From a virus: DNA of 44,220 bases. Position 1 is the first letter of the stretch. Every line of letters starts with the position of its first letter. The stretch spans positions 1 through 44,220 of IMG/VR virus record IMGVR_UViG_3300031857_000399. The stretch is one strand, 5' to 3'. The position numbers and the translations under genes are program-made. Below, piece by piece: positions 3,109 through 41,694 of this stretch. The notes beneath the pieces are model-generated. The model did not search any database, was not told the DNA's origin, and worked only from the letters and a program-made list of their open reading frames with translations.

Positions 3109-6100
3109 TCATGTATTTGTTAAAGGTGATGGAATATATTTCAAAGATACAGAAATTAATCTCTGCTCCGTTGTCAATGAATTAGTTAATTCTACCTGTG
3201 CATATAATCCTTTCATTGATATGCCCAAGTATTTACCTCCGCTACTATTAGTATCCCTCTTTATCGTAGCATTAAACTTGTTCTCCTTACTGTTAATAGT
3301 AAACACTCCAACGGTCTTTTCAAAGTCTGCGCTGGTCAAATTTGTTAACTGATTAGTTAACGGACCAGTAGATACAAACCCTGTCCACAACCCATTTGCC
3401 AATTCTTCAATAGCTGTATAAGTCTTTTTGACCTGCACATTACCATTAAATACAGTATGAACAGAAGAGCTCTGTTGCTCACCGAAGAAGTTATTCCTTG
3501 TCAGGTTATCGTGCTTATATACGTGCCATCCCTGGTTTACCTGAGCCGTTGTGTCAACATACAAGCTGTAAATAAAGCCATTAATAAACAATATGGCTTG
3601 TGCTTTAGTAAATCCATAAAAGCTATGGAACTTTTTAGCAGGCTCGCTATATGCGATTATATTGTTAGTAATAGCATTTGTATCCTGGTCGATACTTCCT
3701 ATCAGCATAATAACATTCCTGTTCTCGTAGTTAAAGCACCCGTATCCGTAGCTATTGATATTTATGTTGTCATTTACCCATGAAGACATATTAAAGGTGT
3801 CGCTGATGTTGGTTATTCCATCAAGACTTACCCTAACAATTGCCTTATTAAGAGTATCAATAAAGTAGTCACCATAATCAGTAGACACAAGGCTGCTTCC
3901 GTATTTATCTATACCATACTCACCGGAGTAGTAGTTTGGTTTATTTAACAGCTTCTCCGACAAGGATACCTGCGTAGATGTAGCGTTATCAACAATGATG
4001 CTTCTATAAATAGGTATCATCGCTGTCTTGAACCGCTGGAACATACGTATAAAGTTCTCCCTTGTCTTTAACCTTAATATATCTCCGAAGCTAGCATCTG
4101 CCTCCTCAAAGTTTTCAGGATAAAATCTGTTAAGGTTGTTTATGTTAGTTCCGTAAATGTAGGACTGAGAGAAGCGAAGCATTGCCGGGAAATACTGCGT
4201 CTTAGCAGATTCATCTATAACCAATGTCCTGCCCTGCCCCCAAACAGCACTTTCCCAAGTGTCGCTAAAATGAGAGTCAATACAAACATATTGAGTAATG
4301 TCAGTTGCCGCATTAGTTACGAGCTTTCTTCTTCTTGCGTAATAATCGCCGTCTATACTTCTTATAATTGCAGGTCTAACTCCGGCCCCAATAATTTGAC
4401 TTTGTATAGCACCTAAATGCACCTTATTGCCATTTGTATCAAACCCTATTTGATAGCTTTCCCCTATTTCGTAGTATACATTTTCTGTCTCTTGAGAAAT
4501 AACAGGAGCAGGCCTTAATATCTCAATTAAAAAACTATGGCTTGCGTTGGATAAATAAGACATGCTAGCAGCCACATAAACTATTTTAATATACGTATCA
4601 GAACCCTTTGTTACAACTCCAAGTATTTCATAATCATCATGAGATGCAAGTACACTATTTGTTGTCTGATTTTTAATAAAACGTATCCTGTCGCCCTTTA
4701 CAAAAGATGTTGGTCCATAATTTATTATTGTAGCAGACGTAGGAAACTGCTGGCCATGCAAGAATATATTCTGAATATTAATATATATGTATGGAGCAGA
4801 ATTTGATATTTCACTTAAGTCGTTGCTTGGCTTTGTAATAAAAAATTTAGAGAATGAAGACGTTAACTCTTTTGTCCTAGCTAAATGGTAATAACTCGCC
4901 CATGAAGGAGGTGCATGATTTATGGAAAAATCAATGCTTGTAATAAATGGAACTTGAAATGAATCTTGGCTGTATTTAGGTATGTCGATAGTAAGATTCT
5001 TATTATCTCCTATAAATACGCCATTTGTTTTACCATCTTTGCTGTAATATGCTATTCCATACTTGTATCTTCCAAGCCATTTTAAGCAAGATATTGTATC
5101 GTTACCAGTAGAAGTTGTTGGTGTTGTGCTTGTATATATTACATCCAAACCAAGAGTTGGGTCTCCTGGATAAGAAGCAAAACCAATCGTTCCTCCAATT
5201 GTATTAAATCTTATAGTTACGCTAAGATTTGATGAGCTGACTAATATAGCTCCAACCTGCGCAGAAGATGCGTTAATACCTGATACTATTGAATTTCCTA
5301 CATTTAATAAGTTTTGTCCAGCAGTTACAGTATAATTAAATATTGGCTCTGCAACAGGTATACCTGTATTTCTGTTGATTATATTAAACTCTAATGAAAA
5401 AGTATCTCCGGTTGCAACATTGCCTGTTAAATCAAGAGTGTAAGATAGTGAATAGTATTCGTCTTCATTATCTGTTGGTCTTGGTGTGCTAGGGGTAGTG
5501 GTAAAAGAAACATTCCCTGTTACAGAGGATATTAACCTTTGCGTAAGAGATGTTGTTACATTAAAATTTGTCAATCGTTCTAAGCCTTCTTTTATTCCTG
5601 CAAAAACTAACGTATTACCATTAGCTAACTCCAAAGCATTTGCCTCGTCAGGTACATAATCATATAAAAGATTAGACTCTTCTATATCTACAACCAAGTA
5701 TGAGCCATCATTAAAAAACTCATACGTATAAGATACGTTATTTGAAATACTGGTAATTGACTTAGTAATTGTTTCTACCAAAAAATAATCACTCCATACA
5801 GATTCTATATTTACCCTTCCGGCTATTTCAATTTTCTTTACATTAGCCTCCCCTGAATTAATAGCAATATATATTCCGTTTGATTTTGTCCCATCAGCGT
5901 AATAAGCGTCATCTATTGCTATAGGTGGTATAGGAGGCTTGCTTACTGCGCTCCATACACTTTTCTCTTCGTCGTCGTATACAAATCTATATCTGAACTC
6001 AAATAACTTCTTTCTGAGATTATTTACATTTCTCCCTGGTGCATTAAAATATTGGCAAGATGGCTGACTTGTAGGAGGCGCTTTTATTACCTTAAAATAG

Positions 6101-6606
6101 TCAAACTGAACATTGTTCGCAGCGGATAAAATCGGAAGATTAGTAGTGTTGAACTTTAAAGGCCTTTTCAATGGGTCAATAAAGTATACCAAATCACCTC
6201 CATTATCCCTGTAAATAATCTTAATATCCTTAATTATCTTATTAGGATTGTATTGAGAGTCTGTCCCCCAATTAAGTACAGTTGAACCGCCAGTATCTAC
6301 TCTATCCTCAAAGAGTACGGTATGTACGTTTGTCTGTACATCCACTGATATAATCCGGTGATTCTGTACAGCATTAAAAGTAAAGTAGATTATCTTTTGC
6401 CTTGTTCTGTCAAAGTGAGCACCACATACCCATTCAGAGCCATTGGCAGGAGGGGGAGCACCTTGCAAAAGCGTATTGCCAAGCATATTGGTAATCCCAT
6501 CAGGGCCATTCTCAACATTCATAGCATAGATATAATCGCCTGATGGCAACAACTCTTTGCTTGCATCCTGATTCAACCCACCATTGTAACCTCTTACATC
6601 TACCAT
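3109..6606 (-). CDS. Large tail / stabilisation structural protein, 1165 aa
   Basis: Largest protein in the window. The N-terminus (VDVRGYNGGLNQDASKELL, then P-x-G-x-Y and a GNT motif) resembles the large beta-rich stabilisation/tail protein of crAss-like podoviruses, which closes the portal and neck. Most of the chain is beta-rich with many Tyr/Asn/Thr, consistent with propeller and Ig-like domains. Residues about 350-500 look like a separate beta-sandwich insertion (Thr/Ser-rich). It follows the three neck proteins (spacing 2 bp) and precedes the ejection-type proteins, the expected place for a tail hub or nozzle protein. Family assignment is by eye. Confidence 0.65.
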   Translation of the reverse strand: MVDVRGYNGGLNQDASKELLPSGDYIYAMNVENGPDGITNMLGNTLLQGAPPPANGSEWVCGAHFDRTRQKIIYFTFNAVQNHRIISVDVQTNVHTVLFEDRVDTGGSTVLNWGTDSQYNPNKIIKDIKIIYRDNGGDLVYFIDPLKRPLKFNTTNLPILSAANNVQFDYFKVIKAPPTSQPSCQYFNAPGRNVNNLRKKLFEFRYRFVYDDEEKSVWSAVSKPPIPPIAIDDAYYADGTKSNGIYIAINSGEANVKKIEIAGRVNIESVWSDYFLVETITKSITSISNNVSYTYEFFNDGSYLVVDIEESNLLYDYVPDEANALELANGNTLVFAGIKEGLERLTNFNVTTSLTQRLISSVTGNVSFTTTPSTPRPTDNEDEYYSLSYTLDLTGNVATGDTFSLEFNIINRNTGIPVAEPIFNYTVTAGQNLLNVGNSIVSGINASSAQVGAILVSSSNLSVTIRFNTIGGTIGFASYPGDPTLGLDVIYTSTTPTTSTGNDTISCLKWLGRYKYGIAYYSKDGKTNGVFIGDNKNLTIDIPKYSQDSFQVPFITSIDFSINHAPPSWASYYHLARTKELTSSFSKFFITKPSNDLSEISNSAPYIYINIQNIFLHGQQFPTSATIINYGPTSFVKGDRIRFIKNQTTNSVLASHDDYEILGVVTKGSDTYIKIVYVAASMSYLSNASHSFLIEILRPAPVISQETENVYYEIGESYQIGFDTNGNKVHLGAIQSQIIGAGVRPAIIRSIDGDYYARRRKLVTNAATDITQYVCIDSHFSDTWESAVWGQGRTLVIDESAKTQYFPAMLRFSQSYIYGTNINNLNRFYPENFEEADASFGDILRLKTRENFIRMFQRFKTAMIPIYRSIIVDNATSTQVSLSEKLLNKPNYYSGEYGIDKYGSSLVSTDYGDYFIDTLNKAIVRVSLDGITNISDTFNMSSWVNDNININSYGYGCFNYENRNVIMLIGSIDQDTNAITNNIIAYSEPAKKFHSFYGFTKAQAILFINGFIYSLYVDTTAQVNQGWHVYKHDNLTRNNFFGEQQSSSVHTVFNGNVQVKKTYTAIEELANGLWTGFVSTGPLTNQLTNLTSADFEKTVGVFTINSKENKFNATIKRDTNSSGGKYLGISMKGLYAQVELTNSLTTEQRLISVSLKYIPSPLTNT

Positions 6607-21984: not shown

Positions 21985-22038
21985 TTTGTAAATGTAAGCT
22001 TATTAGCTGTTATTAGTACCCAATAATATAAACACTTT

Positions 22039-22070
22039 AAAAAAAGCCCAACAAGTAGACACAAGTCGGG
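22039..22070 (-). terminator. Intrinsic terminator at the left end of the divergent region
   Basis: Minus strand CCCGAC pairs with GTTGGG (22070-22047; one G-U pair) around 12 nt, followed by CTTTTTTT. No protein gene lies upstream of it on the minus strand within the divergent region, so it must end some leftward transcript coming from 22071-23100, possibly the structured RNA. Confidence 0.72.
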
Positions 22071-22108
22071 AATGGTTTAAGAATACCTCAAATTTACAAC
22101 ATCGTTGC

Positions 22109-22139
<31 letters not shown>

Positions 22140-22153
22140 ATCTGTATACCATA

Positions 22154-22511
22154 ACTTTGAAGTAGTCTAGGAACAAGTCCAGACATACGCACTACTCCTC
22201 AAAGTAGTTACGGCTTAACAGAGATAGAGGTTTACCCTATCAATCCTAAGCCCAGAAGTCGGGTAGTAGCTGTCACCATAGACAGCAATGTGTCCCCGAT
22301 AGCGTAGCAAATGGTTTAAGAACATAAAGACCCTTAGAGGTAACAGCTGTTAACCAGATGAGTAAGGTTACAGGAACACAGGGCTGTTACGAAGGTGTAC
22401 CACTACGGTGGCAACGTACGGTCTAAGGCATAAATCTTAAACTAATGTAAGCGAAATTCATCCCGCACTTAAGGGGACTCTTGACTCTTGTAAGTAACAA
22501 TGCTCGCTATC
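22154..22511. ncRNA. Candidate large structured RNA, about 358 nt, strand undecided
   Basis: Protein-free stretch full of nested, mutually compatible helices. Helix 1: 22154-22166 with 22191-22205 (13 bp, 2-nt bulge). Helix 2: 22212-22217 with 22247-22252, enclosing hairpin 22223-22241. Helix 3: 22269-22274 with 22281-22286. Closing helix: 22298-22309 with 22501-22511 (11 bp, one bulge). Inside it: 22314-22321 with 22435-22442 (8 bp), 22332-22338 with 22422-22428 (7 bp), 22340-22346 with 22384-22390 (7 bp), 22347-22355 with 22366-22373, and hairpin 22400-22411, which on the plus strand has a UACG tetraloop closed by C-G. The tetraloop favours plus; the terminator at 22039-22070 favours minus. 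No known RNA family recognised. Confidence 0.7.
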
Positions 22512-23061
22512 CCAATCCCACACCACATGACGCTCGCACTATATATTTAGTACTTAATTAGATACCTAACAGATTAGCTGTTAATATACTGATTGATTGA
22601 GTTTAGTTATAATGTATGAATGCTGAGGGTTATCTGAAATACATAAAGGCTGAGGGTTCCCCCCTCCCCCTCGTATGGTCCCGACCCGGGGGAAGTCGAT
22701 TGCTGCTACTGAGTACCCTCCGTTTTCGTTTGTGCGACTCCGTTAGTCGTTTGCTTCCTTACTTTTATTTTTCTGTCATAAGGTTAACTAACTTTTTATA
22801 TTTGTATATATTATTATGTAGTTATGTTATGTCGGGATGATGTGCTTTCCCCTACCTCCTTTCCTTTACTTTCCTTATTCGCTAAATTTCCACTAACTTT
22901 TTTTTATTGCATCATGTAACTAATTTTTTATGTGATGTGATTAGATAGTTTTAAATGTCACGGGATATTGTGTTAATTCATCTGTTTTAATATAGGTGTG
23001 TTTTCTTTGGTTTGCCTTTCCTTTTCTTATTAGATATTATTCAATGCCTTATAAACAGCAT
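22512..23061. other. Protein-free part of the divergent control region
   Basis: No credible gene. It begins with AT-rich spacer containing GCTCGC repeats (about 22502 and 22532). A GC-rich island at 22650-22760 carries C runs (22659-22687), a hairpin CGAC...GTCG (22681-22698 region) and a second CGACT/AGTCG hairpin near 22734-22749. AT-rich sequence follows with a TATATTTG box at about 22798-22805 (plus). The rest is T-rich without clear structure. Confidence 0.5.
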
Positions 23062-23130: not shown

Positions 23131-23163
23131 TTTGGAAATATAGTTTTATTTGTAGTACATTTG
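23131..23163 (+). promoter_or_regulatory. Main rightward early promoter, Bacteroidota type
   Basis: TTTG at 23131-23134 and TACATTTG at 23156-23163 with a 21-nt gap match the -33/-7 consensus of Bacteroidota housekeeping promoters. Predicted start near 23170 gives a 30-nt leader to the ATG at 23200. Preceded by the paired operators, it is the best candidate for the promoter of the early region. Confidence 0.75.
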
Positions 23164-23199: not shown

Positions 23200-23673
23200 A
23201 TGAACACACAAAACAATGCCACACCAGGTACACAGTTACCAGGAACAAAAGAAACGAAAACAGTAATTAATCTGACAGGCAAAAACTCTAACATGTCAGG
23301 CAAGGGACTAGAAGCCAAACAGGAAAGGGATGCAAAAAAATTACTACGCAAAGAAACGAACGAAGCTCGTAAAGATGCCATAAAGGAGCGCAAAGATGAA
23401 CAAAAGACGTTATCTTATCATTTCAAGGAGCTTCAAAAGTACGGGCAAACATACGCGGATAAACTAAGCAAAGAAACGGGCACAAATATCACCCTTTCAA
23501 ACATTCAGACGTTAAAATATCGGGATTTTTTACCATTCCTTACGATGTCCGAAGATTATTCAAACACCGCAAACGGTTGGACATTTGCCCGTCTGTTGTC
23601 TGTTGTTGCCCGTTACTACAGAAATGAGGCTAAAAAGCAAATAAACGATTCTATATTATTAGATATAGAATAA
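23200..23673 (+). CDS. First early gene, charged protein of unknown function, 157 aa
   Basis: Starts at ATG 23200 (MNTQNNATPGTQLPGTKETK), 37 nt past the promoter. Residues 1-35 look disordered; 36-80 are strongly charged and helical (KQERDAKKLLRKETNEARKD); the C-terminal half (about 85-157) looks like a folded helical domain with aromatic residues (YRDFLPFLTMSEDY, FARLLSVVARYYR). No family recognised. Being the only gene before the RNA-rich stretch and next to the early promoter, it could be a host-takeover or RNA-binding protein, but that is a guess. Confidence 0.7.
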   Translation: MNTQNNATPGTQLPGTKETKTVINLTGKNSNMSGKGLEAKQERDAKKLLRKETNEARKDAIKERKDEQKTLSYHFKELQKYGQTYADKLSKETGTNITLSNIQTLKYRDFLPFLTMSEDYSNTANGWTFARLLSVVARYYRNEAKKQINDSILLDIE

Positions 23674-23682
23674 GACAATTTA

Positions 23683-23732
23683 CACCCATATACGTAAAAA
23701 CGTACGGACAAAATTTTGCTTGTCTATGGGTG
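23683..23732. ncRNA. 50-nt three-way-junction RNA element
   Basis: CACCCATA (23683-23690) pairs with TATGGGTG (23725-23732), 8 bp. Directly inside are hairpin TACGT-AAAA-ACGTA (23691-23704), a 2-nt CG linker, and hairpin GACAA-N8-TTGTC (23707-23724). The junction is gapless apart from the linker, and all pairs are Watson-Crick. It begins 10 nt past the stop of the first early gene, so it would be in the early transcript 3' UTR or be a processed RNA. Resembles a small riboswitch or stability element; no family recognised. Confidence 0.65.
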
Positions 23733-23789
23733 CGATATGTCGACAACAAACGAAGATAGTCGACAAACATAGGCAAAAAATAGCCATAT

Positions 23790-24167
23790 ATGAGGGTAAA
23801 AAATTCAGTGAATTTCCTCATGTAGCTTTCAACAGTGTTGAAACGGGCAAAGATATGTCAATGTTATCTTCAGTTCTTTGACATAACGGAAATTATTTTG
23901 TATTGTAACCATATCCGGTTATTGATATAAAGATAGGTTATTTTTCCGGCTATTTTTAGCCATCCAATTTAACCGACCAAACGAACGGCAAAAATATATC
24001 TATATTATTGCGGAAAGTAAGACCGAACGTCGACCCGCACCTTAAATAAGTGCGCTAAGTCTAAGGCAAAGTAAATTTAATTTATTCGTTTCTTTATTCG
24101 TAGCCAATGGATAGAAAAACATACACGTGTATACGGGCCGACCTGTATACATGGCTTATGGCATTGG
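23790..24167. ncRNA. Run of hairpins in the early intergenic region
   Basis: No credible gene between 23674 and 24447. Consecutive hairpins: 23790-23821 (6+6 bp, bulge, AGT loop), 23827-23843 (7 bp, AGT loop), 23854-23885 (8 bp), 23906-23921 (5 bp), 23948-23961 (5 bp), 23988-24011 (4+6 bp), 24036-24054 (5 bp), and 24104-24167 (6 bp closing, 7-bp inner TGTATAC/GTATACA). The density suggests a structured transcript running from the three-way junction to the tRNA-like element, though some short AT-rich hairpins may be chance. Confidence 0.45.
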
Positions 24168-24362
24168 ACAAGGTCTAAGCATGTCGCATGGGAACGGGGA
24201 AATTGCGACATAAAAAGATAATTAATAAGCGTGCAAACAAACCAACAATATTAACTTAACATAATTAGCAAAACAGAACTGTTATGGCTATACTCGCCCT
24301 GATGTTAAACAAAGGGTTAATTGTGCAAAGTTTACAAATATATTGTTTTTATAAACTCTCAA

Positions 24363-24419
24363 GGGAAAGTGCAAAGTGTGGGCGGTACGTGTGTCCAGGT
24401 TCGATTCCTGGCTTTCCCC
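24363..24419 (+). tRNA. tRNA-like element: acceptor and T arm only
   Basis: GGGAAAG (24363-24369) pairs perfectly with CTTTCCC (24412-24418). The T arm is canonical: CCAGG TTCGATT CCTGG (24395-24411). Only 25 nt lie between acceptor and T arm, where a tRNA has about 41, and I find no D or anticodon stem. It is either a decayed tRNA or a minimal tRNA-mimic, for instance a processing signal for RNase P/Z. The early gene leader follows directly after the 3' end. No 3' CCA is encoded. Confidence 0.55.
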
Positions 24420-41682: not shown

Positions 41683-41694
41683 TGTTTATTTTTG

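Follow-up and report, generated by a model that had tools for sequence, protein, structure and literature searches.

The phage genome analyzed here encodes a structured RNA whose fold is supported by covariation among relatives and which constitutes a previously uncatalogued, free-standing phage RNA family of ~320 nt. The predicted RNA spans positions 22164-22480 (~317 nt), most likely on the plus strand; its 3' end is approximate, conservation ceasing soon after GGGGA, and a conserved terminator was not found there. We give an even chance to the reading that it represents a new family of free-standing, stable and probably trans-acting noncoding RNA, functioning alone or in an RNP, in a clade of Bacteroidota phages. 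A sequence-only reading of the same DNA had described a large, highly nested phage RNA at this site. The covariation supports that interpretation; the underlying observation was confirmed in part, as several of the drawn helices proved wrong.

The analyzed DNA, referred to as the window, is the whole virus record IMGVR_UViG_3300031857_000399 of 44,220 bases. It carries a structural module with terminase, portal and virion proteins, and also encodes a GroES-like protein, an ERF recombinase and a primase/helicase. At its end, the virion protein encoded at 3109-6606 on the minus strand carries a crAssvirus muzzle C-terminal domain (PF25729); the phages that have this RNA family possess a muzzle domain of the crAss type. 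Since the closest named relatives of the terminase (~28%) are from Flavobacterium, Cellulophaga and Maribacter phages, the host is probably a member of the Bacteroidota, and the phages of the clade probably infect freshwater Bacteroidota. Some cultured Flavobacteriia phages are distantly related to the clade, so a host system may be reachable.

A terminase search of IMG/VR gave 11 related contigs, and the RNA region was present in 10. All 10 relatives with enough sequence have a single copy of the RNA, oriented alike with respect to the late genes. The terminases of these relatives are 80-94% identical, and the alignment comprises 8 distinct sequences including the window, all from one clade. 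DNA identity in the RNA core (73-92%) is about equal to that of the terminase gene (74-86%). The RNA is flanked by the late operon, which lies on the minus strand with its 5' side near 22064, and by a rightward operon starting near 23200. This location, divergent from the late operon, is kept across the 8 distinct genomes. DNA patterns taken from several parts of the RNA returned the same contigs plus a few extras with at most a chance model match. These extras (L014 and L049-L056) were rejected as homologues: L014 gave no model score, and L053 alone gave an R2 match, at chance level (E 9.5). No homologues were found in the plasmids, bacterial genomes and terminase kin of 43% identity or less that were searched. 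As far as these collections show, the RNA is restricted to one phage clade.

The case for structure rests on covariation. In the named structure of 73 pairs, 96.9% of cells pair in the 8 sequences, against 32-39% with slid partners, and compensatory changes occur in 35 of the 73 pairs, where shuffles give 17.1 ± 2.6. RNAalifold predicted 77 pairs from the same 8 sequences, 37 of them with double changes. A tree-aware null, in which the inferred substitutions were replayed on the tree at random sites, left 9 pairs of the structure with E<0.05, and p≤0.01 was reached by 22 of 75 structure pairs compared to 0.57% of all other pairs. The covariation thus extends beyond phylogeny, the criterion of a structured noncoding RNA, and the check on homologues that the sequence-only reading had proposed was passed strongly. 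Single-sequence folding is a modest signal. The RNA strand beats shuffles in all 8 genomes (z -1.9 to -3.9), and for 22140-22520 of the window the plus strand gave z=-2.4 with 3 of 100 shuffles equally good; the unusual order claimed earlier is present in this sense, but as a single-sequence signal it is modest.

The RNA starts with a 5'-terminal hairpin, GUCU-A-GGA ACAAG UCC-AGAC (22165-22184), which was read from the sequences and not formally counted; by eye, the relatives have hairpins of differing sequence at this position. The 5' domain (22186-22306) is a four-way junction supported by covariation. It is closed by the 5-bp P1 (22186-22190/22302-22306), within which lie the arms P2 (22191-22195/22204-22208), P3-P4 (22212-22217/22247-22252 and 22223-22230/22235-22241) and P5-P6 (22258-22263/22295-22300 and 22269-22274/22281-22286). 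With the full P1 this domain has 35 pairs, of which 17 show compensatory changes, and 94.3% of cells are paired versus 34-38% when slid. For P1 itself, 4 of the 5 pairs covary and 95% of cells in the 8-genome alignment are paired. Two helices drawn by the sequence-only reading do not survive here. In the window, the 11-bp closing helix (22298-22309/22501-22511) is a strong one, with 0 of 300 shuffles as good, but in most relatives it is absent or at chance level; it excludes P1 because it uses bases of that conserved helix. The conserved P2 hairpin (22191-22208) competes with the 13-bp helix at 22154-22205, which in addition overlaps the box of the -7 promoter element.

The 3' domain (22312-22444), likewise supported by covariation, contains a three-way junction. 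P7, a helix of ~10 bp (22312-22321/22435-22444) with 6 covarying pairs, closes the domain and is separated from P8 by a conserved internal loop, ACAUAAAGAC/GCAUAAA. The inner 8-bp helix proposed earlier (22314-22321/22435-22442) is part of P7, pairs in all 8 genomes and shows double compensatory changes in 6 of its 8 pairs. P8 (22332-22338/22422-22428; 3 covarying pairs) encloses the arm P9-P10, formed by P9 (22340-22347/22383-22390; 3 covarying pairs) and P10 (22348-22355/22366-22372; 4 covarying pairs), and the arm P11 (22397-22403/22408-22419; 4 covarying pairs) with a conserved CAACG bulge. The hairpin at 22400-22411 for which a C(UACG)G tetraloop had been noted belongs to P11; its stem is real, whereas the loop sequence varies among relatives. 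Mimicry of 23S rRNA, suggested by the look-alikes GGUCUAAGG and GCGAAAUUC, was rejected: blastn against E. coli genomes gave nothing, and GGUCUAAGG is a part of the covarying P8 that is not kept in relatives.

Downstream of P7 the RNA is closed off by an H-type pseudoknot (22447-22478). A blind search for extra stems returned 22451-22453/22464-22466 with the variants GCG/CGC, ACG/CGU and GAG/CUC; this stem, S1 (GU-AA-GCG, 22447-22453/22464-22468), is paired in 8 of 8 genomes and was confirmed on a separate alignment of its own. The secondary structure obtained by computation includes both P1 and the pseudoknot stem. The second stem, S2 (CC/GG, 22462-22463/22475-22476), is a putative one because it is invariant among relatives. 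With two multi-way junctions, invariant loops and a pseudoknot, the RNA resembles stable structural or catalytic RNAs more closely than simple cis hairpins, and its secondary structure is good enough for mutant design, SHAPE and cryo-EM. The pseudoknot and the highly conserved single-stranded segments ACAUAAAGACC and GUAARMGAAAUUCA would also suit a ribozyme or a replication-primer RNA, with a catalytic core or as an origin transcript. We regard this as improbable, since Rfam 15 gave no match to a ribozyme or intron family, no interrupted gene was found and the locus showed no evidence of an origin.

Several observations point to the plus strand as the RNA strand. G-U cells outnumber A-C cells by 18 to 6, as fits this strand, with 8 of the 18 contributed by one invariant pair. 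A predicted promoter -7 box, TAACTTTG, lies at 22152-22159 on the plus strand. It follows TAnnTTTG, the flavobacterial/Bacteroidota sigma-A -7 consensus at position -12 to -5 (PMC9723704), and would place the transcription start at ~22164. This motif occurs 31-41 nt upstream of P1 in 6 of 8 genomes, with no perfect box in L002 and L004. That the stretch lacks a gene, as had been stated, holds: there is no ORF of at least 60 aa between 22064 and 22616 of the window. The longest ORFs inside the RNA are 14-60 aa and not common to relatives, and protein coding was rejected because the ORF is not shared and indels do not come in threes.

The free position, the own promoter, the elaborate fold and the strong conservation favor a stable trans-acting RNA. 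In this reading, host RNA polymerase with sigma-A would start transcription at the RNA's own promoter, which points away from the late operon. The transcript would adopt a compact fold of two domains with the 3' pseudoknot closing it off, and in the infected cell it could function as a stable RNA, either by itself or within an RNP.

The region downstream bears on a different reading, in which the RNA would be a cis-acting, riboswitch- or attenuator-like leader of the rightward operon. The RNA is on the same strand as the conserved first gene of this operon (142-167 aa, starting near 23200) and always ~700 nt upstream of it. Conservation continues past the RNA with a separate noncoding element at 22630-22720 (plus strand; GAGGGU...ACCCUC, CCCCC/GGGGG), which folds no better than shuffles (z -0.8) and possibly belongs to the same transcript, and the noncoding stretch runs on to ~23160, allowing a long leader. 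However, ~700 nt separate the RNA from the gene, and the gene has its own -7 box TACATTTG immediately upstream (23156-23163), so that a simple 5' leader is disfavored; moreover, no plus-strand terminator was found in the region. On balance we consider a leader function unlikely.

Further noncoding elements occur on the plus strand beyond this region. The stretch 23674-24100 folds strongly (z -4.4), with a long stem that is also visible by eye in relatives, and may be another structured RNA. The motif CTATACTCGCCCTGATGTTAAACAAAGGGTTAATTGTG (24286-24322) is near-invariant in 7 genomes and directly precedes a truncated tRNA-like element (24363-24419) with an acceptor GGGAAAG/CTTTCCC and a T-arm CCAGG-TTCGATT-CCTGG. 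The ~25 nt between acceptor and T-arm leave no room for a D arm and an anticodon arm, and ARAGORN did not call the element; it is kept in L002, L005, L010 and L012 with compensatory changes in the T-stem. More distant kin have long stretches upstream of terminase that are noncoding and fold well (L033, 3572-4368; L040, 6903-7346; z about -3 to -4); these are possibly other large RNAs.

On the late-operon side, a divergent -7 box, TAAATTTG (22089-22096, minus strand), conforms to TAnnTTTG in 8 of 8 genomes and would drive a predicted short leader RNA (22039-22084, minus strand) that precedes the first late gene. Inspection by eye places a terminator hairpin (22046-22070) and a T-run at the end of this leader. 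The large RNA could pair with the leader, alter termination before the first late gene and control the late operon. Complementarity of the leader to the large RNA extends over 13 nt (window), 14 nt (L002) and 12 nt (L007). Yet in most genomes matched leader/RNA pairs were no better than mismatched ones. Only L002 (0.1%) and L007 (0.25%) stood out from background windows, the others falling at 1-5% with ~40 leader windows tried; the pairing site in the large RNA varies between genomes, and a second promoter-like box is seen by eye closer to the first late gene. Because matched pairs were not superior and background was exceeded only weakly, the pairing is kept as a weak lead, and we judge such control of termination to be unlikely. 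The same low standing applies to a two-RNA control unit in which the ~320-nt ornate RNA, of catalytic-type complexity, would engage the divergent short terminator RNA and govern late transcription.

Two repeated sequences were also noted. An exact 13-nt direct repeat, AATGGTTTAAGAA, is present in the late-strand leader (22071-22083) and in P7 (22310-22322); inspection of the relatives' leaders by eye did not reveal it. The motif TTAGCTGTTA recurs in the window at 22003 and 22574 (plus strand) and 12960 (minus strand), with 17 copies at no more than one mismatch versus 5.4 expected. In several relatives, copies or variants were seen by eye around the intergenic region and in the promoter of the large RNA; the motif is a possible operator.

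The RNA gene adjoins the late operon, in which terminase and portal are encoded. As it is also structure-conserved and clade-restricted, like phi29 pRNA, the RNA might be a packaging RNA forming part of the terminase motor. Against this, the RNA is divergent from the late operon and not inside it, distant kin with a 43% identical terminase show no RNA homologue, and the variable hairpin loops show by eye no sign of an inter-subunit kissing loop. We regard a packaging role as improbable. The pRNA of phi29 is ~170 nt long, conserved in structure, found in a small clade only and encoded near late genes. The RNA described here is similarly conserved in structure, confined to a small clade and near late genes, but differs in architecture and is longer.

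The earlier view that the RNA is neither GOLLD, ROOL, tmRNA, RNase P nor a group I intron was borne out: Rfam 15 gave no match for the window or 6 relatives, even at a permissive threshold. This includes the covariance models of GOLLD (gathering and permissive thresholds), ROOL, group I and group II introns, RNase P, tmRNA and 6S RNA, and ARAGORN found no tmRNA. Elemovirus and Cellulophaga podoviruses share with the window phage a terminase (~28%) and a GroES-type gene; they are listed here as kin of the phage, not of the RNA, and a search of the elemovirus record and of MW202828 with the RNA model gave no match. Many GOLLD members exceed 800 nt and often occur near tRNA islands, and ROOL RNAs, of ~660 nt, come from many different kinds of phage (PMC12286853). 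Like GOLLD, the RNA described here is a phage-encoded, ornate, multi-junction noncoding RNA. Unlike GOLLD (~800 nt with a conserved 3' region), it is ~317 nt long, has another fold and has no tRNA nearby; the sequence-only reading had placed it near tRNAs, but the only tRNA in the window (Lys, by ARAGORN) is 19 kb away at 41694, though the truncated tRNA-like element lies at 24363-24419. With ROOL, which is phage- or prophage-encoded, it shares large size, structure and pseudoknots, but no sequence or model match. The likeness to both is loose: it is an ornate phage RNA in kind and a member of neither family. GOLLD and ROOL, as phage-conserved large structured RNAs without a known job, are a standing puzzle, to which the present RNA adds a further, smaller family.
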